Positions 1,454 through 47,121 of a stretch of DNA of 47,666 nt are shown here, in pieces. Both the position numbers and the translations under genes were made by a program. Origin of the DNA: a virus. Below the pieces are notes generated by a model, which made no database searches, had not been told where the DNA came from, and saw nothing but the letters and a program-made list of their open reading frames with translations. The DNA lies in IMG/VR virus record IMGVR_UViG_3300035682_001161, positions 1 through 47,666 of that record; one strand, given 5' to 3'. Positions within the stretch are counted from its first letter, which is position 1. Each line of letters opens with the position of its first letter.

Positions 1454-2584
1454 ATGTCTATAAGACAAATGTTTCCGGGGAGTATTGTTAAGCCGGGGTT
1501 TAATCCTCTAGCGGTTCAGACACCTATCTATACTTACAATTTGTACGGTTGGGGCGATAACTCTTATGGTCAATTAGGATTGGGCAATATAACTAATCGC
1601 TCTTCTCCTAATCAAGTCGGTGCTTTGACTGATTGGTTAAGCATTGTTACTAGATACAGCACATTGGCTTTAAAAACTAACGGGACAATTTGGGCTTGGG
1701 GTAGGAATCAAGCAGGCCAATTGGGACTTGGTAACACTACCTACTATTCATCTCCAAAACAAGTCGGTTCTTTAACAACTTGGTCTGTTGTGGCAACTAT
1801 TAACAATGCGTCTATGGCATTAAAGTCTGATGGAACACTATGGACATGGGGTGGTAATAGTTTTGGCGCATTAGGTCTTGGCGATACTATATCTAGGTCT
1901 AGCCCAGTACAAGTTGGAGCTTTGACCAATTGGGCAAAGATTTCTACAGGTGCAAATTTTGGTGGTTTTGCAATTACAACTAGTGGCGCTTTGTATGGCT
2001 GGGGTTACAACACTTCAGGTGCATTAGGGTTGGGTAATGTCACCAACTATTCGTCACCTAAGCAGGTCGGTTCATTAACTAATTGGTCATCTGTTGTATC
2101 TGGAATACAAAACACTTACGCAATTAAAACAGATGGCACATTTTGGGCTTGGGGTAACGGTAACTATGGGGCATTAGGTCTTGGTAACTCAACATATTAT
2201 TCCAGCCCAAAACAAGTCGGAGCTTTGACCAATTGGTTGCAAGTTTCGGCATCGGAATATTCTGCATTAGCTGTTAAAACTGACGGTACATTATGGTCTT
2301 GGGGAGATGGTGGTTCAGGCGTTTTGGGTTTAGGTAATACAAGCAATTACAACTCTCCCAAGCAGGTTGGTGCTTTAACTGCATGGACTGCTGTAAGGCT
2401 TGGTAAAAACTTTGCTATTGCTTCTAAAACAGACGGAACTATTTGGACTTGGGGAAATAATACTTTAGGTGAATTAGGTTTAGGCAATACAACCAACAGA
2501 AGTTCCCCAGTACAAGTAGGAGCACTTGCCACTTGGGGCTATATTACTGCTGGCGCTCAATCAACTTTTGCCCTAGCTTTCTAA
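1454..2584 (+). CDS. RCC1-repeat beta-propeller protein A1 (putative receptor-binding protein)
   Basis: A 376-residue protein. After an N-terminal segment with KPGFNPLAVQT it carries seven RCC1-type repeats of about 50 residues, each of the form DGTLW.WG.N..G.LGLGNTT.YSSPKQVG.LTNW. Seven WG turns can be counted, so a complete seven-bladed propeller is expected. RCC1 propellers are protein-binding scaffolds. In phage late regions they sit next to tail fibres, so a surface-exposed binding or decoration role is inferred. It has no signal peptide and no catalytic motif. Its head matches that of the gene at 6206 (shared KPGFNPL), making the two paralogues. The following RCC1 gene starts 9 bases downstream and differs in its N-terminal domain. 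Confidence 0.85.
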   Translation: MSIRQMFPGSIVKPGFNPLAVQTPIYTYNLYGWGDNSYGQLGLGNITNRSSPNQVGALTDWLSIVTRYSTLALKTNGTIWAWGRNQAGQLGLGNTTYYSSPKQVGSLTTWSVVATINNASMALKSDGTLWTWGGNSFGALGLGDTISRSSPVQVGALTNWAKISTGANFGGFAITTSGALYGWGYNTSGALGLGNVTNYSSPKQVGSLTNWSSVVSGIQNTYAIKTDGTFWAWGNGNYGALGLGNSTYYSSPKQVGALTNWLQVSASEYSALAVKTDGTLWSWGDGGSGVLGLGNTSNYNSPKQVGALTAWTAVRLGKNFAIASKTDGTIWTWGNNTLGELGLGNTTNRSSPVQVGALATWGYITAGAQSTFALAF

Positions 2585-2593
2585 GAGACAACT

Positions 2594-3766
2594 ATGCCAG
2601 TAACAATCCCCGGCGTTCAATACTCAGGCATCTGGACAATGCAACAGGTGAATGCCGCTATTGCGGCTGGGACTTGGCCTTATATTGAGCCTCCGGGTAG
2701 TCTGTATGCAACGGGCCTTAACAACGCAGGGCAATTAGGCACTAGCAACACAACCTATTTCTCAAGCCCTGTCCAAGTTGGCGCATTAAGCACATGGTCT
2801 AAATTAGCGGCGGCAAGCAATACAAGTGGTGGTATTGCTTCTGATGGCACATTGTGGATGTGGGGCAACAACAATTATGGCGCTCTTGGCTTAGGCAATA
2901 CAACGCAATATTCTTCGCCAAAGCAAGTTGGATCGTTATATTGGTCTAAATTATCCATTGGTGCAAACCTTGCAACGCTTGCTATTAAAAGCGATGGTAC
3001 TTTATGGGCTTGGGGTCGTAATGACAGCGGTAGGCTTGGTCTTGGTAACACAACAGATTATTCTTCCCCCAAGCAAGTTGGTGCATTGACTACTTGGCTA
3101 AGCATATGTTGTGCTTACGAAAGTAGTTTTGCAATTAAAACAGACGGTACGCTTTGGTCTTGGGGTAGTGGAGTACATGGAAGATTGGGTCTTGGTAACA
3201 CCACTTCGTACTCCAGCCCTAAACAAGTTGGTGGTTTAACAAATTGGTCAATGGTTGCGGCACAGGGACAAACTACTCTTGCTATTAAAACTGATGGCAC
3301 ATTGTGGTCATGGGGCCGAGGAAGTCTAGGTGGACTAGGTTTGGGTAATACCACATATTACTCATCTCCAAAACAAGTTGGAACATTAACCAATTGGAGT
3401 TTTGTGGCTGGCGGTTTATTGCGTGGATTGGCTACCAAAACAGATGGTACTTTGTGGGCATGGGGTTACAACAATGAGGGTGCATTGGGTCTAGGCAATA
3501 CAACTGATTATTCATCACCTAAACAAGTTGGTTCTTTAACCAACTGGGCAAAAGTGTATGGTCAAACCAATAACAATTACAGCACCTTAGCTGTTAAAAC
3601 TAATGGCACTTTGTGGTCTTGGGGTAATAATACTTATGGGCAATTAGGTCTTGGTAATTTAACTGGATATTCTTCTCCTAAACAAGTTGGAGCGCAAACC
3701 AATTGGGGCGAAAATCCTAATACTATAGCCATAGGTCAAAACCATTCTGTTGCCACTAGAGTATAA
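2594..3766 (+). CDS. RCC1-repeat beta-propeller protein B1
   Basis: A 390-residue protein whose short N-terminal domain contains PGVQYSGIW and AAGTWP. Seven RCC1 repeats follow; the first is degenerate (LYATGLNNAGQLGTSNTT instead of WG.N). The N-terminal head matches that of the gene at 7335, so this is the B member of a duplicated A-B gene pair. The repeats keep the consensus YSSPKQVG and DGTLW.WG while inter-repeat residues vary, as expected if the scaffold is conserved and loops diverge. It is probably a virion surface protein in the tail region; this is inferred from position. The gene ends 4 bases before the sulfotransferase/GT9 fusion. Confidence 0.85.
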   Translation: MPVTIPGVQYSGIWTMQQVNAAIAAGTWPYIEPPGSLYATGLNNAGQLGTSNTTYFSSPVQVGALSTWSKLAAASNTSGGIASDGTLWMWGNNNYGALGLGNTTQYSSPKQVGSLYWSKLSIGANLATLAIKSDGTLWAWGRNDSGRLGLGNTTDYSSPKQVGALTTWLSICCAYESSFAIKTDGTLWSWGSGVHGRLGLGNTTSYSSPKQVGGLTNWSMVAAQGQTTLAIKTDGTLWSWGRGSLGGLGLGNTTYYSSPKQVGTLTNWSFVAGGLLRGLATKTDGTLWAWGYNNEGALGLGNTTDYSSPKQVGSLTNWAKVYGQTNNNYSTLAVKTNGTLWSWGNNTYGQLGLGNLTGYSSPKQVGAQTNWGENPNTIAIGQNHSVATRV

Positions 3767-3770
3767 ACAC

Positions 3771-5549
3771 ATGAACAAAACACTGCACTTCCTCTCTGGC
3801 ATTCCTCGTTCTGGCTCTACAGTCCTTGCGGCTATCTTGAACCAGAACCCAATGACTCATGTATCCACCACATCTGGGCTTGTCCACGCCCTTGATGGGC
3901 TTGCCAACACATGGCATTCGGCTGGCTTGCTGAACGAAAACGACCCGGAGAGAACAAAGTTAGCGCAGACCATGCGCGGGGCAATTGATGCGTTCTACGA
4001 AGACACTGACAAGCCTGTCATCATCGACAAGTCCCGTGGCTGGCCTATTGGTCAAATTATGGGTGCTATGTCGCAGGTGCTAGGTCGTCAGCCTAAGATC
4101 ATTGCTACTGTTCGCTCAGTGCCTGACTGCGCCGCCAGCTTCATTCGTGTAGCCAAACCCACAGACCTAGACGAGTTCATGGCAACTGGTCAACTGATGG
4201 ATCACCTTAAAGCCGCTTACATTTCCCTCCAAAACGGCTATGAGTACGCACCAGAGAACTTCCTATTTGTTGAGTATGAAGACCTGTTAGCTGACCCCAA
4301 AGCGCAGTTAGCCCGTATCCATGAGTTCTTGGGTCTGCCTGAGTTTGCCTACGACTTCAACAACATTGATGGCTCAAGCGTAGCTGAAGATGATGAAAAC
4401 TTGCACGGTCACGCAGGGATGCACGATGTCAAGCCTGTATTGGCGGCGCAGCATAAGCAAGACCCCCGCGACCTGCTGAAGCACCACTACTCAGCTTTCT
4501 GTCAGCCTGAGTTCTGGCTTGAGCGTCCACGCACAGTTCCTGAGTTGCATGACCTAGACCTACAGCTTGCCGCATCCACAATGGGTGACTTTGCTGAAGG
4601 CTGGAGACTGGCCCAAAAGTTAGAAGCTGAAGAGCCTAGCAACCACCGAGCCGCCTATAACCGTGGCTGGTATTACCTGCGCCAAGGTCAAATCCAAAAG
4701 GGCTACGGTCTGATGGACAGAGGACGAATCGTAGGTGTCTTTGGTAACTCACGCCCTGATGTGCCTACACCCCAATGGGACGGTAAAACAAAGGGTACGG
4801 TCATGCTGTATCTGGAAGGCGGTCTGGGCGATCAGATTCACCAGATTCGCTATGCCAAACTAATTGCAGAGCGTGGCTGTAAGGTGGTTGTTTCCTGTAC
4901 TGGACAACTGGCATCCTTATTCCAAGGCGTAGAAGGCGTATCAGCCGTTGTTCAGCACGAGGCTACCTTTGGTATCTACCACGACTTCTTTGTGTCTGGA
5001 ATGTCTGCTGTAGTGCCTCTAGGCTTAGAAATGCGTGACTTATCTGGTGCGCCATACCTTGAGAAGCCAATGTCGATCAAAGGTCGCAAGAAACGCATTG
5101 GTCTGCGTTGGCAGGGCAACAGTAAGTTTGAGCATGAGCACAATAAGAAATTTCCTTATGAACTCATGTTTGAGGCGGTAAAGGATATTGATGCTGAATT
5201 TGTTTCCCTCCAAAGAGATGAAGGAATGGAAGCGTGTCCAGCTTGGGTTAAGCAAGTCCCCCTGAATACTTGGCAGGATACCCAGCAGGTTGTAGCAGGA
5301 TGCGATCTGGTCATCTCAGCTTGTACCAGTGTGTCACACCTATCGTCTGCCATGGGCGTAGAAACTTGGTTAATAACGCCTGTAATGCCATACTTTTTGT
5401 ATTCCATTGACGGTGACAAGACTCCATATTATGATGCTATGAAGCTGTTTAGACAGAAGACTTATGGCGAATGGTCTGACCCGTTTAACGAGGTAAAAGA
5501 GCAATTGTCACAGATTATTCCTGCCGCTCAATTACGGAGAGTTGCTTGA
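3771..5549 (+). CDS. Sulfotransferase - TPR - GT9 (heptosyltransferase-like) fusion protein
   Basis: A 592-residue protein. Residues 1 to about 230 are a sulfotransferase-type domain: the phosphosulfate loop SGIPRSGST lies at residues 9-17, then a KSRGWP segment and an IIATVRSVPDCAASF helix that would bind the 3'-phosphate of PAPS. A short TPR-like helical linker follows at about 275-320. The C-terminal third has glycosyltransferase family 9 features: EGGLGDQIHQIRYA, KRIGLRWQGN, and DLVISACTSVSHLSSAMG with LITP, the nucleotide-sugar site seen in ADP-heptose transferases and TPR-linked relatives. Activities on glycans or proteins are inferred, and donor and acceptor are unknown. An upstream TTG at 3750 could add seven residues, but the ATG at 3771 starts the P-loop domain normally. 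The next gene overlaps its stop codon (TTGA). Confidence 0.8.
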   Translation: MNKTLHFLSGIPRSGSTVLAAILNQNPMTHVSTTSGLVHALDGLANTWHSAGLLNENDPERTKLAQTMRGAIDAFYEDTDKPVIIDKSRGWPIGQIMGAMSQVLGRQPKIIATVRSVPDCAASFIRVAKPTDLDEFMATGQLMDHLKAAYISLQNGYEYAPENFLFVEYEDLLADPKAQLARIHEFLGLPEFAYDFNNIDGSSVAEDDENLHGHAGMHDVKPVLAAQHKQDPRDLLKHHYSAFCQPEFWLERPRTVPELHDLDLQLAASTMGDFAEGWRLAQKLEAEEPSNHRAAYNRGWYYLRQGQIQKGYGLMDRGRIVGVFGNSRPDVPTPQWDGKTKGTVMLYLEGGLGDQIHQIRYAKLIAERGCKVVVSCTGQLASLFQGVEGVSAVVQHEATFGIYHDFFVSGMSAVVPLGLEMRDLSGAPYLEKPMSIKGRKKRIGLRWQGNSKFEHEHNKKFPYELMFEAVKDIDAEFVSLQRDEGMEACPAWVKQVPLNTWQDTQQVVAGCDLVISACTSVSHLSSAMGVETWLITPVMPYFLYSIDGDKTPYYDAMKLFRQKTYGEWSDPFNEVKEQLSQIIPAAQLRRVA

Positions 5550-6172
5550 CTACAGACGCACAACCATGTCATGTGTACCAAATAACCAATCGGTTAAATG
5601 GTATGCAGTACATTGGCGTGTCCACAAATATCAAGAGGCGTTTTGCATCCCATTGCAGGGATACTAAATCAACTTACAAGTCTCATTTAAATTACGCGCT
5701 GGTTAAGCATGGGTCTAAACAATTTGAATTAAAGACACTGCTTACCAGCACAAGACAGTATTGCTTGGAAATGGAAGCAAAGCTGATTAAAGTTTACAAC
5801 ACATTAACGCCAACTGGGTATAACTACACTGGTGGCAATGATGGGCCAATAGCCGCCCGTAGCGGTGAGCGTAGCCCTATGTATGGTAAGACTGGTGAAC
5901 TGTGTGCGTCATATGGCAAAAAGCATTTGCCAACTTCTATTGAAAAAATGAAACAAGCACATGCTGGCAAGAAAAACAGCATGTATGGGAAAAGCGGCGC
6001 TTTAAGCCCAACTGCCAAATCGTTTGTTGCTATTGACCCATCTGGAATAATTTATAAAAGCAAGAGCCTATCAGCTTTTTCTGAAAAGTATGGACTGTTG
6101 CCATCTGGAATGAAAGCTGTTGCAATTGGCAAAAGAAATCATCATCGCGGTTGGAAGGTTCAATATGTTTAA
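5546..6172 (+). CDS. GIY-YIG homing endonuclease with NUMOD motifs
   Basis: A 208-residue protein. The N-terminal GIY-YIG nuclease domain is seen as VYQITN...GMQYIGVS.NIKRRFASH (residues about 9-35), with the later EAKLIKVYN helix containing the expected metal-binding Glu. Two NUMOD3-like motifs follow (ERSPMYGKTG and KNSMYGKSG), and the C-terminus has a NUMOD1/helix-turn-helix end (SLSAFSEKYGL ... HHRGWKV). This is the typical layout of phage free-standing homing nucleases. The likely start is TTG 5546, overlapping the previous TGA; a GTG about eight codons downstream is an alternative. It separates the two RCC1 gene pairs and looks like a mobile insertion in the late operon. Confidence 0.85.
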   Translation: MTTDAQPCHVYQITNRLNGMQYIGVSTNIKRRFASHCRDTKSTYKSHLNYALVKHGSKQFELKTLLTSTRQYCLEMEAKLIKVYNTLTPTGYNYTGGNDGPIAARSGERSPMYGKTGELCASYGKKHLPTSIEKMKQAHAGKKNSMYGKSGALSPTAKSFVAIDPSGIIYKSKSLSAFSEKYGLLPSGMKAVAIGKRNHHRGWKVQYV

Positions 6173-6205
6173 TCTGTTTAACAAGCCAGCATTGAGGAGT
6201 GTAGC

Positions 6206-7330
6206 GTGAGCTTTAGATATGCCGCTGGGATAAACAAGCCGGGGTTCAATCCGCTTGGCGCTCAGACCAGTAGTTCTACAAGTACATTATTTATTTGGGG
6301 CTATAACAATAAAGGTCAACTTGGTTTGGGCAATATAACTGATCGTTCTTCACCAGTACAGGTAGGAACTTTAAGCGAATGGCTCAATGTTTCTGCTGGT
6401 TATTATTCTAGTGCCGCTGTTAAAACCGATGGAACATTATGGACTTGGGGTGGCAACAGTGTAGGAACTTTAGGATTGGGCAACACTGTTGACTATTCAT
6501 CGCCTAAACAGGTTGGTGCATTGACTACTTGGTACAAAATTGCTGGACTTAAATATTCTTATGCCGCAATTAAAACTGATGGAACCTTATGGACATGGGG
6601 ATATAACCTCCAAGGTCAATTAGGTTTAGGAAATGCTATTAGCCGTTCATCTCCAAATCAAGTTGGTGCATTAACTACTTGGTCAGATATTGCTGGTTTA
6701 GATGTATCTATGATGGCAATTAAAACTGACGGTACTTTATGGGCATGGGGTAATAATACTCATGGTGAATTAGGACTTGGTAATACAACTTCTTATTCTT
6801 CACCTAAACAAGTTGGGTCATTAACTTCTTGGTTAAAAATTGCTGGCGGTACTTATGCATCTTTTGCCATTAAAACCGATGGAACTTTATGGTCTTGGGG
6901 TTGGAATTCTTATCTTCAAGGAATATTAGGATTAGGTAACACCACAGATTATTCTTCTCCTAAACAAGTTGGTGTATTAACTAATTGGTTGTATATTTCG
7001 GCTGGTAACTATCACGCCATATCAACAAAAACAGATGGAACTTTGTGGACATGGGGAGGAAATTCAAGAGGTCAACTTGGTCTTGGTAACACCACAAATT
7101 ACTCTTCGCCTAAACAAGTGGGTTCATTGACAACTTGGTTAAGGGTCGCTGGTGGAGCTTACTCTACGGCTACTGTAAAAACTGACGGAACGCTTTGGAC
7201 TTGGGGTAAGAATGATAGAAGTCAACTTGGGCTTGGCAATACAACTTATTATTCTTCTCCAAAGCAAGTAGGATCACTTACCACTTGGTCTAGACCAGAA
7301 TCTGGATCATTCCATTGTTTGGGTCTATAA
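6206..7330 (+). CDS. RCC1-repeat beta-propeller protein A2
   Basis: A 374-residue paralogue of the protein at 1454, with the same head (AAGINKPGFNPLGAQT) and seven RCC1 repeats. It starts at GTG 6206, eight bases after a clear GAGGAG. One repeat has a three-residue insertion (WGWNSYLQGILGLG), a natural loop extension in a propeller blade. Repeat units are similar at the protein level but use many different synonymous codons, so the duplication is not recent. It is paired with the B-type gene that starts 4 bases after its stop. The role is inferred as tail or surface binding. Confidence 0.85.
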   Translation: MSFRYAAGINKPGFNPLGAQTSSSTSTLFIWGYNNKGQLGLGNITDRSSPVQVGTLSEWLNVSAGYYSSAAVKTDGTLWTWGGNSVGTLGLGNTVDYSSPKQVGALTTWYKIAGLKYSYAAIKTDGTLWTWGYNLQGQLGLGNAISRSSPNQVGALTTWSDIAGLDVSMMAIKTDGTLWAWGNNTHGELGLGNTTSYSSPKQVGSLTSWLKIAGGTYASFAIKTDGTLWSWGWNSYLQGILGLGNTTDYSSPKQVGVLTNWLYISAGNYHAISTKTDGTLWTWGGNSRGQLGLGNTTNYSSPKQVGSLTTWLRVAGGAYSTATVKTDGTLWTWGKNDRSQLGLGNTTYYSSPKQVGSLTTWSRPESGSFHCLGL

Positions 7331-7334
7331 AATC

Positions 7335-8498
7335 ATGGCAACAACGACAATAGTTTCAGGTGTTCAATATTCAGGTATTTGGAACATCAGCAGTCAAGCC
7401 AATGCTAAGGCGGCGGGGACTTGGCCTGTTGGCAGCCCTCAATATTTGTATTCTTGGGGCTTCAACGCCAATGGAGAATTAGGTTTAGGAAATACAGCAT
7501 ATAGATCTTCTCCCAATCAAGTTGGATTATTAGGCACATGGATGTCTTTAAGATGCCTATCAGAAACTTCGCTTGCTGTTCAAAGGAGCGGTACTCTTTA
7601 CGCATGGGGAAAAAATGAATATGGCCAACTTGGTCTTGGTAACATCACTTCTTACTCCAGCCCTAAACAAGTTGGCAATTTAACTAATTGGTCAAAGATA
7701 AGCGGTGGAACTTTTTTTGTAACATCCATTAAAACTGACGGTACTCTTTGGGCGTGGGGTAGAAATAACAATGGTCAATTGGGCCTAGGTAACACAACTG
7801 ACTATTCATCACCAAAACAGGTTGGCGCTCTTACTACATGGTCAAAAATTTCTTGCGGAAGTAATTTAACTTTTGCAATTAAAACTGACGGAACGCTGTG
7901 GGGTTGGGGGAATGGTTTTGCAGGTGGTCTTGGATTGGGTAACACTACAAGTTATTCATCTCCTGTGCAAATTGGCGCTTTAACTAATTGGTTAACAATT
8001 AAAGGAATTGCATACGGTTGCATAGCTACAAAAACCGATGGAACACTATGGGCTTGGGGATATAACACTCTTGGTCAATTAGGTCTTGGTGATACCACTA
8101 ATAGATCATCACCTGTTCAAGTTGGATCATTAACAAATTGGTTAAATATTGTTGGAGGTTCCTACTACACTATTGCCATAAAAACAGATGGTACTTTATG
8201 GGCTTGGGGTAGTAACTCTAGTGGATCATTAGGTCTTGGCGACGCAACCAATAGGTCATCGCCCGTTCAAGTTGGTGCATTAACAAATTGGTCTAATGGT
8301 GGCGTTTCTAGCGTAACTTTTGATTTTGCATTAGCCAATAAAACAGACGGAACTTTATGGTCTTGGGGTAACAATGCAAATGGTCAGTTGGGTTTGGGAA
8401 ATACTAGTTCTTACAACTCGCCCAAACAAGTTGGTTCTTTAACAAACTGGGCAAATATTGCTATTGGCAGTAACTTTACACTTGCAACCGCATCTTAA
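7335..8498 (+). CDS. RCC1-repeat beta-propeller protein B2
   Basis: A 387-residue paralogue of the protein at 2594, with the head TIVSGVQYSGIW...AAGTWP and seven RCC1 repeats (WG turns WGFN, WGKN, WGRN, WGNG, WGYN, WGSN, WGNN). It forms the second A-B pair with the gene just upstream. Having both pairs in the same order implies duplication of a two-gene block, after which the modifying fusion enzyme and the GIY-YIG gene lie between the copies. No enzymatic residues are seen. A ribosome-binding site and a small tail-region gene follow after 28 bases. Confidence 0.85.
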   Translation: MATTTIVSGVQYSGIWNISSQANAKAAGTWPVGSPQYLYSWGFNANGELGLGNTAYRSSPNQVGLLGTWMSLRCLSETSLAVQRSGTLYAWGKNEYGQLGLGNITSYSSPKQVGNLTNWSKISGGTFFVTSIKTDGTLWAWGRNNNGQLGLGNTTDYSSPKQVGALTTWSKISCGSNLTFAIKTDGTLWGWGNGFAGGLGLGNTTSYSSPVQIGALTNWLTIKGIAYGCIATKTDGTLWAWGYNTLGQLGLGDTTNRSSPVQVGSLTNWLNIVGGSYYTIAIKTDGTLWAWGSNSSGSLGLGDATNRSSPVQVGALTNWSNGGVSSVTFDFALANKTDGTLWSWGNNANGQLGLGNTSSYNSPKQVGSLTNWANIAIGSNFTLATAS

Positions 8499-11181: not shown

Positions 11182-11924
11182 TTACTGGATATAAAGGGTT
11201 TATTGGCCAAAACATGGTCAAAGCTCTGTCAGATCACGACCTAGATCTGTGTGAATGGGGTGATGAGTATTCCCTCTATGGAATAGATAGAGTCATACAT
11301 CTGGGTGCTATCTCAGATACACGATGTCAAGATTGGGTAGCTCTGCGTAAACAGAATGTAGGGTATACCATTACTTTAATGGAGAGGTGTCAGAAGTATG
11401 GGATACCTATTCAGATAGCTTCTTCCGCTTCAGTCTATGGGCCAAACAATACGACGTTTAAAGAGACTGACCCAGTAGCTCCTGCTAATCTATACGCAGA
11501 ATCTAAAGCTCTTATAGAAGAGTACTTTCATACTATGCAACCTGTTGCGCCCATCCAGATATTCAGATACTTCAACGTCTACGGCCCACATGAAGACCAT
11601 AAGGGCGATCAGGCTTCTCCGTTTCATAAGTTCCGCGAGCAGGCAAAGACTGGGACAATTAAAATATTTGAAGGTTCAGAAAACTTTAAACGTGACTTTA
11701 TTCATGTAGATGAGGTCATCAAAGTTCACAGAAAACTTTTAATTTTTCTAGGTTCTGGAATTTGGAACGTAGGAACTGGAAAAACAATGTCATTTTTAGA
11801 CGTTGCTCGCTTGGCAGCAGATGAATTTTCAGCGAAAATAGAGACTATTCCAATGCCTATATTGGGTGGTTATCAAATGTATACGTGTGCTGACATGACC
11901 AAACTAAACGGGATATTAAAATGA
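11169..11924 (+). CDS. HldD-like NAD(P)-dependent sugar-nucleotide epimerase
   Basis: A 251-residue short-chain (extended SDR) epimerase. The dinucleotide motif GYKGFIG is at residues 7-13, followed by SSASVYG and the catalytic Tyr109-x3-Lys113 (YAESK). RYFNVYGP..DHKG..ASPF and EGSENFKRDFIHVDEV are strongly like ADP-L-glycero-D-manno-heptose 6-epimerase (HldD/RfaD), the last step of ADP-heptose synthesis. It is somewhat shorter than HldD (about 310). The start ATG 11169 overlaps the kinase stop by 13 bases; an upstream start would add seven unrelated residues. Residues 187-193 are encoded by one copy of a 20-bp palindrome that recurs three more times in the window. Confidence 0.85.
   Translation: MRILITGYKGFIGQNMVKALSDHDLDLCEWGDEYSLYGIDRVIHLGAISDTRCQDWVALRKQNVGYTITLMERCQKYGIPIQIASSASVYGPNNTTFKETDPVAPANLYAESKALIEEYFHTMQPVAPIQIFRYFNVYGPHEDHKGDQASPFHKFREQAKTGTIKIFEGSENFKRDFIHVDEVIKVHRKLLIFLGSGIWNVGTGKTMSFLDVARLAADEFSAKIETIPMPILGGYQMYTCADMTKLNGILK
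11730..11749 (+). repeat. Dispersed 20-bp palindromic element, copy 1 (inside hldD-like gene)
   Basis: AGAAAACTTTTAATTTTTCT: two 9-base arms around a TT centre with one arm mismatch. It is an exact reverse complement of the copy at 29764-29783 and differs by one base from the copy at 35884. It lies inside the epimerase reading frame (codons 187-194), which it keeps open. Confidence 0.7.
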
Positions 11925-27400: not shown

Positions 27401-29765
27401 CCTGTCTAAGAGTGTAGACGGAGCACTTGAAGGTATCTTGTTTAATGGCCATGTCTTTAACGACGGTGGTGCTTTGAATATTAAACCTAACACCAAGGGT
27501 CTGATTGAGACGCTCAAGCCTGTTGGTTCTGAGGTGGATCGTTACCAGATGTGGGTTGCCTTGAACCGTGAATCTAACCTGCCAGAACCAAAACGGTCAC
27601 GCAGCAAAGATATGGACTACATGGTAGCTAATCGTAAGCAGTTGTCTGAAGGAACTATTGACGGCAAGCCTCGTGCTGAAGTCTATGCTGCTGTTCTTAA
27701 AGATATGAACAATCTAAACCGTTCCGTCTTGGATGTGGCTTTAGATCAAGGTTTGATTGACAAATTTAGTTACGACAACTTTGTCAGTGACATCTACTAC
27801 ATTCCTTTCTATCGCCAGATGGAAGACGGTGATCTTCAGGGTGCTCAAACATCAGCAGGTCTGACTCGTCAGCAGTTCTCTAAAGCTTTGAAAGGCGGAG
27901 GAGATCGTCCGTTCGGTGACTTGATGGAGAACACTCTGCGTAACTGGAGTCACATCATGTCTGCGTCGATGAAGAACCAAGCCGCCGCGACTACGTTGAA
28001 AGATGCTCTTGAATTGGATGCCGTAGAGAAGGCCACGGAAGCCGGCCCAGATACCGTGAAGGTCATGGAAGACGGCAAGCCTGCTTACTACACAGTCAAA
28101 GATCCGCTCTTGCTTGAGTCCATCACATCTATTGGATACATGGGCCCACAGTCTAAGTTTCTTGATGTGTCTCGTGACTTTAAAAACATGCTTCAGTACG
28201 GCGTTACCATTTCTCCTGCGTTCAAGGTAAACAACTTGTTCCGTGACTCGGTTCAAGCTATGGCTGTGTCTGACTTAAGTAAGAATCCTTTTGCTAACGT
28301 TGTACAAGGATGGATTGCTACAGATAAGAACAATCCTGCACACATTTCCGCTTTAGCCGGTGGTGCTATCTTTAATTTTGGTACAGCTTATGAAGGCAAT
28401 CAGGCCAAGTTAATTAAGAGGCTACTGGCTAAAGGCGTTAAAGAGTCTGACATCCTAGATACTCCCGATAAAATCAAAGCTGGTCTGTCTAAACTATTTG
28501 ACAAGTATGAAGAACTTGGTAACAAGTCTGAAGCTGCCAACCGCATGGCTTTGTACAACCAGTTGCGTGAGCGGGGCCTGTCTCATTTACAAGCATCGTT
28601 CGAAGCTCGTGACTTGATGGACTTCTCCATGCAGGGATCGTTTAGTGCATTCCGTTACTTGACTCAGGTCGTACCGTTTATGAACGCACGTATCCAAGGC
28701 TTATACAAGTTGGGTCGTGACGGCATTATTCCAACTAGCCGAGTTTTCTACAACTCATTGACTGGTAAAGAGATTGATCTTAACGATAAGAAGAAGGCTC
28801 AGGCTTTCTCTATTATCACAAGCGCTGTCTGCCTTGCTTCGCTTGCTTTGTATGCGATAAATAAAGACGACGAAGAGTTTCAGAAGCGCAGTGACTGGGA
28901 TAGAGATAACTTCTGGTGGATTCGTTTACCCGGTATGGAAACGGCTCTTCGTCTGCCTAAACCGTTTGAAATTGGTGCTTTGGGAACTATTGCCGAGCGC
29001 ACAGCCGAGCAGATCTTTGATGCTGACTCTGAAGGTAAGCAGTTTACCGATGCTCTTAGCCGAATGATGTTGGATACATTTGCAATGAATCCAATTCCAC
29101 AGGTTATTAAGCCAGTGGTTGATCTGTACGCTAACAAAGATAGCTTCACTGGTGCGCCTATTGAGACTGCCGGCATGGAAGCCCTGTCTAAAGCTGAGCG
29201 TAAAGCCGATACCACAAGTCCTTTGGCTATGGCTTTGGCTCCTGTACTAAACATAGCTTTACCAGAAAAAGCAGAGTTAAGCCCAGTTCAAGTGGACTAT
29301 GCTATTAAGGGCTACTTCGGCTGGCTTGGCGGAACGATTGCCTCAACTTCTATGTACGCTGTCGCACCTTTCAAAGATGGTGAATATCCAGATACTAAAT
29401 GGATGGACAAGGCCAGCCTTGGATTTGTGAAGAGCTTACCGTCTAACATGTCTCAGTACACCACCGCGTTCTATGAGAGCAATAAGCAGATTCAGCAAGC
29501 CTTTGCTGACATGCGTAACTATGTTGAGATTGGTGAGATGGATAAAGTCCAGCAGATCATGGAAGAGAAGGGTGACAAGATTGCTCTTCAGAAGATGTAC
29601 ACCCAGACATCTAAACAAATGGCCAATATCCGTAATCAGATCTCTGTTGTAACTAACGACACAAGTTTGGACGGAGCGACCAAGCGAGAGCAGATTGACC
29701 AGATGAAAGAGTTAATCTCCATGTTAGCCAAACAAGCTGAAGATACCCGCAAGGCAATGAAGTAG
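24447..29765 (+). CDS. Giant polyvalent/ejection protein with zincin-like motif (1772 aa)
   Basis: The N-terminal ~350 residues are Gly/Ala-rich with membrane-active character (GAGVVSGIGSLVQLPGQLYGL, FGAARGVGMAARGLG). Around residue 759 there is HEAVHAL, an HExxH zinc-protease signature, with a downstream Glu in EFTAEAM (about 820-824) as possible third ligand. The C-terminal half resembles the LPD38-type domain of large polyvalent phage proteins: DRYQMWVALNRESNLPEPKR (about 1031), SPAFKVNNLFRDSVQAMAVSD (about 1252), FSAFRYLTQVVPFMNARIQG (about 1395) and a hydrophobic segment near 1450. Such proteins are thought to be packaged and delivered with the genome. It is the last gene of the late operon, and its stop lies inside a palindromic element. 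Confidence 0.75.
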   Translation: MATAEQYAEWLVQNQSKKGTPDFDTVASAYRSLRSAPAPQPTAPSRERTYGEAAKDIGAGVVSGIGSLVQLPGQLYGLATGDFSRTGALGAGQQISQFGEEMKSAGLKAREDERARKVAESAKEGQFQAFGTALGETVKDPALLLSFIAEQAPQLLVPFGAARGVGMAARGLGATEAVAGKAAVSGAVGAGGVQQGSDVGAGAYENIYRELKSKGATDTEAAQGALTLARQAGAAAGTISLLAQRLPGARQLEEVLAGVPGKGAAGLGGRLRTAGSTAVGETVGEIPEEVGGKFVSNLAMQQVKPEQSLTEGLGEAAAMATIGGVGLGGAAGLARRPAAPVTETTPETTAFDVTKLPPEILTRIEEITGVKQPEQEQQPMLSAEEAGRQRIQMLQQKVDADAKAQAEKAAREGIPPQVPETPTPDTSKPSLNEQMPQATPLAELEAKQAEIDRLRLEAGLPTGASSKTPGLQPEQVVAEETLVPKIVDNRPLEERAANNRLLVMKNMLQNQGGDPNSLTIIPHPTAEGRFAIQSLDVPVKFTKNLPETAIKKPESPVVIDPVNAYMEIARRTNTPASMRLVKDFEAGIVTREDVEAAIAAEQKAGQPLPLNYKGNGEPWFIASETYKPRGEREIPPLSESLKPPVKEEPTVEEPPVVTTNEMPKTLQEFQVRMPIASNNPAYREAHDKQNFGILADAMAQSTNPTIKRVGELSQKISRKVKIHKPGALAKKEWAGQYDSSDHSIKMRKEYAGHELVNAHEAVHALTVMSQMNPTRSQKPIVEQINKLYDHVKFELGRKGYGYGKGYTGSKSVYGLLNSMEFTAEAMSNPEFQYLLMQIPYPGKKSAWTRFTELVADLLGIKDTSALTEIINLVDKLATKKPPKTTVTGGQTIFGKEEEAPSKVEQVKQKVSTALQKQKPLAPEVMQGVNPQFTEAANRVFKPQTRTIVEKISDMQDRFWQRLAQGIADQYRTIKDYSPIGYMQARLSKSVDGALEGILFNGHVFNDGGALNIKPNTKGLIETLKPVGSEVDRYQMWVALNRESNLPEPKRSRSKDMDYMVANRKQLSEGTIDGKPRAEVYAAVLKDMNNLNRSVLDVALDQGLIDKFSYDNFVSDIYYIPFYRQMEDGDLQGAQTSAGLTRQQFSKALKGGGDRPFGDLMENTLRNWSHIMSASMKNQAAATTLKDALELDAVEKATEAGPDTVKVMEDGKPAYYTVKDPLLLESITSIGYMGPQSKFLDVSRDFKNMLQYGVTISPAFKVNNLFRDSVQAMAVSDLSKNPFANVVQGWIATDKNNPAHISALAGGAIFNFGTAYEGNQAKLIKRLLAKGVKESDILDTPDKIKAGLSKLFDKYEELGNKSEAANRMALYNQLRERGLSHLQASFEARDLMDFSMQGSFSAFRYLTQVVPFMNARIQGLYKLGRDGIIPTSRVFYNSLTGKEIDLNDKKKAQAFSIITSAVCLASLALYAINKDDEEFQKRSDWDRDNFWWIRLPGMETALRLPKPFEIGALGTIAERTAEQIFDADSEGKQFTDALSRMMLDTFAMNPIPQVIKPVVDLYANKDSFTGAPIETAGMEALSKAERKADTTSPLAMALAPVLNIALPEKAELSPVQVDYAIKGYFGWLGGTIASTSMYAVAPFKDGEYPDTKWMDKASLGFVKSLPSNMSQYTTAFYESNKQIQQAFADMRNYVEIGEMDKVQQIMEEKGDKIALQKMYTQTSKQMANIRNQISVVTNDTSLDGATKREQIDQMKELISMLAKQAEDTRKAMK

Positions 29766-29783
29766 AAAAATTAAAAGTTTTCT
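29764..29783 (+). terminator. Dispersed 20-bp palindromic element, copy 2, between convergent operons
   Basis: AGAAAAATTAAAAGTTTTCT starts within the TAG of the plus-strand late operon and contains the TAA of the minus-strand HNH gene. It is an A/T-rich inverted repeat with one arm mismatch and would give an A-tract/T-tract hairpin in both transcripts. A bidirectional terminator function is inferred from position; the stem is weak because it has almost no GC pairs. Confidence 0.5.
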
Positions 29784-35318: not shown

Positions 35319-35606
35319 ATGAGATACGCCAACAGAATCGACGCTAACCAGAACAAAATCGTAGACGCATTACGGGGCGCAGGAGCGGTCGTTCGTATCG
35401 TTACGCAGGGTGATGGCATCCCTGATCTTTTGGTGGCTTATAAGGGCTATACGATCCTTATGGAGGTCAAGGACGGGGACAAAGTTCCTTCGGCAAGGAA
35501 GCTCACCGAGGCCGAGCAGAAATTCTTTGACGAGTGGACAGGTGGACTGTTGGTTATTGTTAATTCTGTTGAAGAAGCACTTGAAATTCTTAAACGCTGC
35601 GAGTAA
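35319..35606 (+). CDS. VRR-NUC family nuclease
   Basis: A 95-residue protein. Residues RIDANQNKIVDALRGAGAVVRIVTQGDGIPDLLVAYKGYTILMEVKDG show the VRR-NUC layout: an N-terminal helix, GIPDLLV with the metal-binding Asp, and EVKDG as the E-x-K. Stand-alone phage VRR-NUC proteins are small, structure-specific nucleases, perhaps acting on Holliday junctions. It starts at ATG 35319 with GTAGGAG upstream; the longer open frame upstream lacks a ribosome-binding site. The gene is alone, since a terminator follows 60 bases after its stop. Confidence 0.8.
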   Translation: MRYANRIDANQNKIVDALRGAGAVVRIVTQGDGIPDLLVAYKGYTILMEVKDGDKVPSARKLTEAEQKFFDEWTGGLLVIVNSVEEALEILKRCE

Positions 35607-35666
35607 TATGGTGGCAATCCAGAGGGCTGGTTGTTTTGTGAGTTGCTTTTTTCCTTTGATTGTTTT

Positions 35667-35697
35667 AGTGGCCTCGTAACTGGGGCCACTTTTTTTT
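35667..35697 (+). terminator. Rho-independent terminator after the VRR-NUC gene
   Basis: AGTGGCC (35667-35673), a 10-base loop and GGCCACT (35684-35690) form a 7-bp stem followed by a run of T (35690-35697). This is the clearest terminator in the window and isolates the VRR-NUC gene from what follows. Confidence 0.85.
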
Positions 35698-35753
35698 GCT
35701 TACTGTTTCCCATAGTAGAAGCGCCGTGCCCGATAGTGGTCGCGAGTTTGTTT

Positions 35754-35769
35754 CACATATATATATGTG
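35754..35769. repeat. Perfect 16-bp palindrome
   Basis: CACATATATATATGTG is fully self-complementary and lies in the gene-free stretch between the terminator and the TTGCCC boxes. It could be an operator or a cruciform-prone site. A partly similar ACACATATATAG occurs at about 46860 in the other control region. Confidence 0.6.
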
Positions 35770-35780
35770 TAACAACTTTC

Positions 35781-35874
35781 TTGCCCCAAATGCCTTGGAA
35801 CCCGCATGGATACTGGAGTTTTTAGGGCAAATGGGGCAACAAAAAAAGTGTACTTTGCCCTGTGGTTTTGCCCC
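35781..35874. promoter_or_regulatory. Cluster of TTGCCC(C) boxes in both orientations
   Basis: Five boxes occur within 94 bases: TTGCCCC at 35781, GGGCAA at 35825-35830, GGGGCAA at 35833-35839, TTGCCC at 35855-35860 and TTGCCCC at 35868-35874. The two central inverted boxes can pair with the two right-hand direct boxes. Such clusters are typical of regulator or replication-initiator binding sites; no function is proven. Confidence 0.45.
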
Positions 35875-35883
35875 AACAGTTGC

Positions 35884-35903
35884 AGAAAAATTTTAATTTT
35901 TCT
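35884..35903 (+). repeat. Dispersed 20-bp palindromic element, copy 3
   Basis: AGAAAAATTTTAATTTTTCT: perfect 9-base arms around TT. It is the exact reverse complement of copy 4 at 47021. It ends 7 bases before the -35 hexamer of a possible promoter, a position suited to an operator or UP-element-like activator site. Confidence 0.75.
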
Positions 35904-35910
35904 ACGGAAG

Positions 35911-35941
35911 TTGACAAGGCCGGAACAGTTGTGCTTATAAT
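35911..35941 (+). promoter_or_regulatory. Candidate sigma70 promoter (TTGACA - TATAAT)
   Basis: Perfect -35 (35911-35916) and -10 (35936-35941) hexamers, but with a 19-bp spacer that is two bases longer than ideal. Transcription would start near 35948, just before a strongly structured stretch with no reading frame. The long spacer may mean that a DNA-binding protein at the adjacent palindrome is needed. Confidence 0.5.
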
Positions 35942-35948
35942 CCGCCCG

Positions 35949-36074
35949 TTACTGTTGCGAGTGACAAGTTTAGGCCACTTAAGGCTATATTCCGCTTTAC
36001 CTAATGCTTTCGGTCGGAGAGATATTAGGCAAGGTCGCAACCGGAATGTAGCCTTAAGTGGCTTTCTTGTTTTT
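35949..36074 (+). ncRNA. Candidate structured small RNA with long hairpin
   Basis: Bases 35974-35994 and 36042-36062 form a 21-bp helix (GCCACTTAAGGC... with CCTTAAGTGGC) with a single G-U pair. Inside, CCTAAT (36000-36005) pairs with ATTAGG (36024-36029), capped by a CTTTC/GAGAG hairpin, leaving an asymmetric internal bubble. The helix is followed by TTTCTTGTTTTT, a U-rich tail fit for termination. A consensus-like promoter lies directly upstream. No ATG-initiated gene with a ribosome-binding site crosses it. The overall shape (long closing stem, bubble, terminal hairpin) recalls 6S-type RNAs, though it is shorter. The RNA is inferred and expression is not shown. Confidence 0.5.
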
Positions 36075-36540
36075 GAGACTGGGACTGGTGGCGGGTTAGC
36101 GCCGTTACAAGCCCTTTCTTGTTTTGAAACCACTGCTTTATGTGAGCAGTTCCAGTCTCTCCTCCTACAGTAACCGTCAGGGCGCGTTAGCTTATACGGC
36201 AGAAATCTCCGGTACCCAGATATGACCTTACCCTTGTAGTCAAGGGCCGCTTCCTAAGAGAGCCGAGCGGTACTGGCAAATGATTCGTGGCCAGTGTGAA
36301 AGAGGGTAACTAACCAATTGAGCCGTAGGGAGGTAAGACTAGCTGTCAGGGCGTACCGTTAAAGCGCCACCCTTATAGAAACAGAATCCGGCATTCCACC
36401 GAACTTGGAAAACGTAGGACAGATGTGCCGCGTTTTCGGAGCACTGCCTCACTGAGTTCCTCCTCTCCGCCAGAGGGGGGTTCAGAGGTAGCGGCTCTCT
36501 CTATGGCCAAAATACAACATTAGGGAAAGTCCTTACTACC
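36075..36540 (+). ncRNA. Gene-free, highly structured stretch; possible large noncoding RNA
   Basis: No convincing reading frame was found. Helices that can be drawn: GAGACTGG (36075) with CCAGTCTC (36152), enclosing three hairpins in a cloverleaf-like layout (GGCG/CGCC, ACAAG/CTTGT, CTGCT/AGCAG); CCCTTG/CAAGGG (36231/36241) with a 4-base loop; TTACCCT/AGGGTAA (36228/36302, alternative to the last); ACTGGC/GCCAGT (36272/36290); CCTCCTCT/AGAGGGGG (36459/36472); and a long-range 9-bp helix AGAGAGCCG (36257-36265) with CGGCTCTCT (36492-36500) that would close a domain of about 240 bases. This density suggests a folded RNA. I cannot assign it to a known class. Confidence 0.4.
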
Positions 36541-36619
36541 TTTTTACAACAGACGGCACAAACTGCTAGAACTGTGCAATAATAATTGGAAACATAGCAG
36601 GTATAACAGGAGATAAGCA

Positions 36620-36820
36620 ATGAGGTATAACGAAGAGAATCTAACGCATGGTGGAGCAAGAAGAGGGGCGGGTCGCCCTGCTACATCGGTGGATAAGCGC
36701 AGGGTTGAGGTGCTCATGAACGAGGGTCTATCTATGAGAGTTATTGCTGAGAGATTCGGGGTAACTGCTGCGGTTATCAAGAGAGTAATCAGGGAGATCA
36801 AGAATGGACAGACCAAGTAA
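36620..36820 (+). CDS. Helix-turn-helix DNA-binding protein
   Basis: A 66-residue protein. After a basic Gly/Arg head (GGARRGAGRP) the sequence VEVLMNEGLSMRVIAERFGVTAAVIKRVIREIK is a clear helix-turn-helix of the resolvase or sigma-region-4 type. It has a good AGGAG and is the first gene after the ~1 kb gene-free stretch, so it may regulate that region or the operon it heads. The 3' end overlaps the next gene by 17 bases. Confidence 0.7.
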   Translation: MRYNEENLTHGGARRGAGRPATSVDKRRVEVLMNEGLSMRVIAERFGVTAAVIKRVIREIKNGQTK

Positions 36821-46807: not shown

Positions 46808-47121
46808 TATCAGTCCTTTGTAACTTGGTGTAAAGCAGTGTAACGAAATGTTATGCCTTACACATATATAGCATAATAGAATCGTGCCATGTATGAAAAA
46901 AGCCTTTAAAATCAACGCTAGGTATTTTCCCTATGAAACACAAAGTATTAAAAAAACAGGGTGAAAGTGCTTTTCAAATTGTGAACGAAATGCTTACAAA
47001 AACAAGCTGCACAAAGGGCTAGAAAAATTAAAATTTTTCTGTTCCAATCGCGCCCGTAAGGACATAGCGAAGCGGGTCGGCTTTGCTTCCCATTCCCCCA
47101 ATCAAGTAGGAGAGAACACAC
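46808..47121. other. Divergent control region between early operon and terminase
   Basis: This 314-base gap separates the minus-strand early operon from the plus-strand late region. It is A/T-rich with several poorly matching -10-like strings (TATTAT and TATATA on the minus strand near 46880; CATAAT on the plus strand), but no promoter that I would place with confidence. It contains the fourth palindromic element and a possible 29-codon plus-strand reading frame (46933-47022, start MKHKVLKKQGESAFQIVNEM) that lacks a good ribosome-binding site and ends inside that element. A ribosome-binding site (AGGAGAG) precedes the terminase gene. Confidence 0.5.
47021..47040 (-). repeat. Dispersed 20-bp palindromic element, copy 4
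   Basis: AGAAAAATTAAAATTTTTCT, the exact reverse complement of the copy at 35884. Perfect 9-base arms. It lies about 80 bases before the terminase ATG, in the divergent control region. Confidence 0.75.

Follow-up and report, generated by a model that had tools for sequence, protein, structure and literature searches.

Does a gene-free stretch of roughly 0.9 kb in an environmental phage genome encode a large structured RNA, and if so, what might that RNA do? The stretch occupies positions 35698-36619 of the window, by which we mean the whole 47,666 nucleotides analyzed (IMG/VR record IMGVR_UViG_3300035682_001161). The initial annotation had proposed that it encodes one or more structured RNAs. 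This holds for ~35948-36502; 35698-35947 consists of upstream region plus promoter and lies outside the RNA. We thus describe a structured RNA gene of ~555 bases on the plus strand (as are its promoter and all its parts below), with its own promoter, running from ~35948 (+1) to ~36502 and followed directly by an ATG. We are nearly certain that a genuine structured RNA gene is present here. Comparison with relatives revealed base pairs under strong selection, promoter signals, and two exchangeable halves; that the ~555 nt form a single transcript is inferred in the absence of expression data. To our knowledge, few large structured RNA classes have been described in phages, and the functions of GOLLD and ROOL remain unknown.

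Extent, promoter, and coding potential

The σ70 promoter predicted from the sequence (35911-35941) consists of TTGACA (35911-35916) and TATAAT (35936-35941). Both boxes are present at the 19-bp spacing first reported, which falls outside the range of a strict promoter scanner, and position 35948 lies seven bases after TATAAT. Among 136 relatives, 128 had their best -10 hexamer starting 12-13 nt before the 5′ end of the RNA (with at least five of six positions matching in 99), and a TTGACA-like box occurred at -34 to -37. From the constant position of the hexamer, we infer that +1 is the first G of the 5′ hairpin. A fixed-distance σ70 promoter supports transcription, although this rests on sequence alone, with no transcript data.

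Two other features were noted near the promoter. A 22-bp AT-rich near-palindrome (AGAAAAATTTTAATTTTTCTAC) is present in four copies in the window (0.01 expected), at 11730-11751, 29762-29783, 35884-35905, and 47019-47040, the third of these just before the RNA promoter. TTGCCCC/GGGGCAA boxes, which may be an operator or iteron cluster, are repeated upstream at 35777-35885 and are absent in loci L011 and L027.

Folding of 35940-36540 gave z = -6.7 relative to shuffled sequences. When the parts were scored separately, 35948-36174 gave z = -9.1 and 36175-36505 gave z = -0.6. Since the energy excess is wholly in the 5′ part, support for the 3′ half comes from covariation and not from energy. We rejected energy alone as proof of the 3′ half, as z was near zero for most 3′ bodies; RNAs held by tertiary contacts can have thermodynamic z-scores near zero. 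A protein-coding reading of the 103-aa plus-strand ORF, which had been judged not protein-like, was rejected, as stops and frameshifts interrupt the frame in most relatives.

Nor does the RNA belong to a catalogued class. A cmscan of the window and 35 other loci led us to reject known RNA families: the window contained no Rfam 15 family at the gathering threshold, and 35600-36700 contained nothing credible at E values up to 10, including matches to the group I/II intron, HEARO, and 6S models. The earlier suggestion of a structured RNA, possibly new and without a known class, is therefore borne out by the covariation in alignments of relatives, the noncoding plus-strand frame in homologues, and the absence of an Rfam match. 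We found no description of the RNA in the open literature, a search that left out most preprints and subscription papers. The RNA, common in environmental phages and absent from Rfam, was previously uncatalogued, and its function is still unknown.

Using the neighboring exonuclease gene, we collected 51 related viral loci, most of which contained an RNA-like region in the slot after the small nuclease gene. The alignment of relatives split into two blocks that are inherited separately, 35948-36174 and 36174-36510. Reading the sequences by eye, we distinguished ~8 types of 3′ body in this slot that are unrelated to one another, as well as several 5′ modules.

The 5′ domain

The 5′ domain (35948-36174) begins with a hairpin, P0 (35948-35965), that comprises the first 18 nt of the RNA, is fixed in length, and has a 5-bp stem. 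Its strands, GTTAC (35948-35952) and GTGAC (35961-35965), were paired in 97.7% of cells in an alignment of 52 sequences. The P0 loop contains K (GTTGCGA, 35954-35960), which pairs with K′ (TCGCAAC, 36035-36041), a bulge on the 3′ side of arm 1 that is followed by CC. Arm 1 (35974-36074) is a long terminator-like hairpin with a U-rich tail. Where a 21-bp helix had been noted, we found 24-nt arms (35974-35997/36039-36062, 92%); the U-rich tail reported to follow it is present as TTTCTTGTTTTT, but it is a weaker U-tract than those of relatives. Arm 2 (36075-36159), described initially as a stem enclosing three hairpins, was recovered with 13-nt closing arms (36075-36087/36147-36159, 92%). This branched arm is optional, since a mosaic comparison revealed other arms or none in relatives. 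The domain ends with P1′ (ACAGTAAC, 36167-36174), whose partner is 35948-35955.

Overall, 98.3% of cells were paired in the 52-sequence alignment, and 184 cells were changed on both sides, compared to 42 in shuffles. Shuffle controls lose the relatedness among sequences; sliding the partner strand, which keeps it, lowered pairing to 28-52%. K-K′ was paired in 99.7% of cells, with five covarying pairs, and 11 of the 13 counted pairs in arm 1 covaried. Because the 52 sequences had been selected with a pairing rule, the unbiased test is a set of 75 loci for which the sole criteria were the arm-1 motif and a GTT anchor at the 5′ end, without reference to K-K′ pairing. All five variable K-K′ pairs were kept in 71 of these 75 loci, which carry 22 distinct loop sequences. 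With permuted partners, the mean was 3.0 of 5 pairs and never exceeded 3.4 in 2000 trials.

A model, R1, built on the 52 sequences (including the window itself), matched the window at 35948-36071 with 83 bits (E 4e-19). The window also meets the features of the R1 family: P0 at +1, pairing between the loop and the arm-1 bulge, ACC after K′, and a terminator-like arm. As judged from these alignments, the 5′ domain of the relatives is one family.

The same 5′ strand has a second partner. The P1 5′ strand fits its own P1′ better than the P1′ of other phages (20.1 versus 17.0; maximum 18.0 in 5000 permutations). The P0/K and P1 pairings exclude each other; whether they form a switch is unknown.

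These properties raise the possibility of a cis-acting antitermination or attenuation leader, in which the 5′ domain would bind or load RNA polymerase so that the enzyme passes first the terminator-like arm and then later terminators, with P0/K versus P1 as the switch. The domain begins at +1, its 5′ strand has two mutually exclusive covarying partners, and arm 1 ends with a U-tract, like an intrinsic terminator, in nearly all members. HK022 putRNA is likewise a structured phage RNA that comes right after an early promoter and is read with terminators (PMC9378689), and putL, just downstream of its promoter, encodes a two-stem-loop RNA (PMC9378689). However, putRNA is ~70 nt, consists of two stem-loops that act in cis on polymerase, and has no long 3′ body. 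A leader would also leave the conserved and exchanged bodies described below unexplained. In addition, the U-tract in the window is interrupted, and K-K′ pairing leaves arm 1 intact. We therefore consider a leader of this type unlikely.

The 3′ domain and its start codon

The 3′ domain of the window (36175-36502), which we call body type B1, starts with GTCAGGGCGCGTTAGCT. Among eight relatives, 18 pairs had compensatory changes, with a significant covariation of 0.222 compared to 0.119 in shuffled alignments. The 9-bp long-range helix predicted initially is perfect in the window, with its 5′ strand at 36257-36265 and its 3′ strand at 36492-36500, and it covaries in relatives: double-sided changes were seen at alignment columns 101/342 in 3 of the 8 sequences and at columns 102/341 in 4. 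For the commonest body (G-type), 24 of 25 pairs covaried across 26 sequences, with 94.9% of cells paired and a covariation of 0.80 versus 0.24. Since this structure was drawn by reading the alignment, it leans towards pairing; we argue that the evidence for the fold is instead the size of the effect relative to the sliding control, in which at most 46% was paired. At the level of sequence comparison, the 3′ domain is shown to be a covarying structured RNA that is exchanged as a unit among relatives.

Directly after the long-range helix of the window is a start codon with a six-codon ORF (36503-36523; ATG GCC AAA ATA CAA CAT TAG, MAKIQH). B1, B3, and G-type relatives also have a start codon at this position, and three loci with a different body (L009, L027, and L053) carry nearly the same mini-ORF as the window. 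No Shine-Dalgarno sequence precedes the ATG at 36503, and the B1 type likewise lacks one.

For the G-type, all 70 distinct 3′ ends contained NTG 6-8 nt after CACCCTTGG (ATG in 58, GTG in 7, TTG in 5, and never CTG). The codon was at offset 7 in 64 of the 70, and its first base was restricted to start-codon letters. Its context is a Shine-Dalgarno-like GGGGAACCU-AUG-NCU-AAA, the second codon being mostly NCT and the third mostly AAA. Two caveats apply: the rule used to define these ends sought TG at offsets 5-8, which favors a find, and the ends represent fewer than 70 independent events because they are related to each other. Sixteen of 72 G-type ends shared their frame with a gene of 60 aa or longer, and in 12 of 72 the stop codon of the mini-ORF overlapped or abutted the ATG of the next gene. 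As far as these ends can be read, the commonest type is shown to finish at a start codon, which belongs either to the next gene or to a mini-ORF of ~2-20 codons. Bodies B4, B5, and B8 had no clear start codon at the 3′ end.

A model that we favor, though we hold it with less than even confidence and without expression or binding data, is that this is a large, modular, independently transcribed phage RNA whose 3′ domain engages ribosomes at the 3′ end. The comparisons above show that transcription is set to start at the first base of the conserved 5′ hairpin, that the loop of this hairpin pairs with the bulge in arm 1, and that the same 5′ strand can instead pair with a segment immediately ahead of the 3′ domain. 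In the model, the role of the 5′ domain would be to shield the 5′ end and to allow passage of RNA polymerase through arm 1. We infer that the 3′ domain would engage ribosomes at the start codon. It would do so as a structured translation-initiation element that drives or gates the following ORF or, in cases such as the window where there is no such gene, as a ribosome-occupying minigene. Phage minigenes, such as lambda bar, consist of a strong initiation signal and then an ORF of a few codons. Unlike the new RNA, they have no large structured RNA in front, and translation of the new mini-ORFs is untested.

Several results stand against this ribosome model. No gene started within 130 nt of 31 of the 72 G-type ends (20 of these 31 had a fresh TTGACA just downstream); the next gene in the window is ~100 nt further on with its own RBS; B1 lacks a Shine-Dalgarno sequence; and the 3′ ends of B4, B5, and B8 do not clearly coincide with a start codon. 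A terminator-like arm in the middle of the RNA is also awkward for a single long transcript. A broader version, which we find doubtful, is that the RNA represents a new modular class in which a universal promoter-proximal kissing-hairpin domain is joined to interchangeable structured bodies. These bodies, including those without a Shine-Dalgarno sequence such as that of the window, would deliver ribosomes to the 3′ start codon and so would work like an IRES in bacteria or trap ribosomes. The rapid exchange of bodies suggests selection for diversity, such as against host or rival-phage factors, and that the exchange is diversifying is likewise an inference. As the 5′ domain is short and ribosome engagement can be tested by toeprinting, the RNA may offer a tractable way into the function of large phage RNAs.

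Relation to other large RNAs, distribution, and neighbors

About as likely as ribosome engagement is a stand-alone role like that of GOLLD (Rfam RF01998) or ROOL. The whole 555-nt RNA would fold into a stable, ornate particle that acts in trans and may be an RNA-only oligomer; its start codon would be incidental. We regard this as a serious possibility that falls short of probable. GOLLD, a large structured RNA of phages whose function is unknown, has a universally conserved 3′ region and a variable 5′ region, and ROOL is a large pseudoknotted RNA of phages and prophages with no known partner (PMC12286853). Both form cages and are often near tRNA islands (PMC12286853). Like GOLLD, the new RNA is a large structured phage RNA with one variable half that is near tRNAs in some genomes; like ROOL, it is large, pseudoknotted, and without a known partner. 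Its size, own promoter, and elaborate covarying structure, together with the many members that lack a downstream gene, also fit such a role. However, the GOLLD and ROOL models matched nothing in the window at the gathering threshold, in 35600-36700 at E values up to 10, in 12 other loci at the gathering threshold, or in 23 more at E values up to 1 or 0.1. The layout is also reversed, with a shared 5′ domain and exchanged 3′ bodies, and strict 3′ start codons and gene fusion are not expected of a purely structural RNA. We know of neither body exchange nor a 3′ start codon in GOLLD or ROOL. The comparison can thus be no more than an analogy: the new RNA is of the same broad kind, and it differs in its conserved half, body exchange, and 3′ start codon.

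Well over 100 phage contigs in IMG/VR carry relatives of the RNA. There, a 17-base motif from the beginning of the 3′ body (GTCAGRGCGCGTTAGCT) was found in at least 119 stretches and a 21-base arm-1 motif in at least 120. The window RNA had no match among cultured phages, and the commonest body was found in only one INPHARED record, the uncultivated MW202484. A search for hosts or prophages covered 399 genomes of the order to which one Comamonadaceae MAG belongs and yielded only two weak short matches; seven genome-contig matches to the 17-base motif appear to be coincidental.

Across 138 contexts, we found no gene family that goes along with the RNA, and no recombinase or transposase travels with it. 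The commonest neighbors reflect a few slots, such as beside an Erf/exonuclease operon or upstream of an apparent major capsid gene (called by reading only). We rejected a dedicated protein partner, since none was found near the 138 RNAs. A conserved 90-96-aa protein, for which neither Pfam nor PHROG gave a significant match, is present in only a few contigs. Its gene lies just before the 3′ domain in L030/L175, L043/L063, L089, L120, and L146, and follows the 5′ domain in L030 and L043. The sequence that separates its stop codon from the 3′ domain could fold into an H-type pseudoknot.

Some bodies contain a copy of their own flank. In 17 RNAs with B2 or T2 bodies (including L007, L022, L041, L185, L193, L194, L253, and L265), an internal segment of 5-9 nt after GGCTCC is identical to the flank after the CACCA end, in a nearly fixed register with the flank copy 67-79 nt downstream. 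The identity averaged 7.3 nt, compared to 4.1 nt when permuted, and 7 of the 17 RNAs, those with the longer matches, had no complement of the segment inside the RNA. Such copies could reflect an RNA-guided or self-mobilizing element whose bodies insert at specific sites using internal guide sequences. We think this very improbable, as the copy is absent from the G and B1 types (the commonest type and that of the window), no recombinase or transposase is alongside, and the identity may in part stem from a shared Shine-Dalgarno-like sequence.

In two loci, a match to the int-alpA RNA (RF02996) lies directly after the new RNA (L119:3597-3670, 34.2 bits; L229:805-879, 31.4 bits; cut-off 35.8). Because of this downstream position, we rejected int-alpA as part of the new RNA; it is a separate 71-nt neighboring element that neither the window nor most members contain. 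tRNA genes are found near the RNA at L270:7030-8044, L043:4890-5241, L014:4737-4898, L016:3580-3741, and L046:2115-2282. Elsewhere in the window (1454-8498), four genes match phage families with RCC1 (regulator of chromosome condensation) repeats, and a gene for a GIY-YIG/HNH-type homing endonuclease lies among these four.
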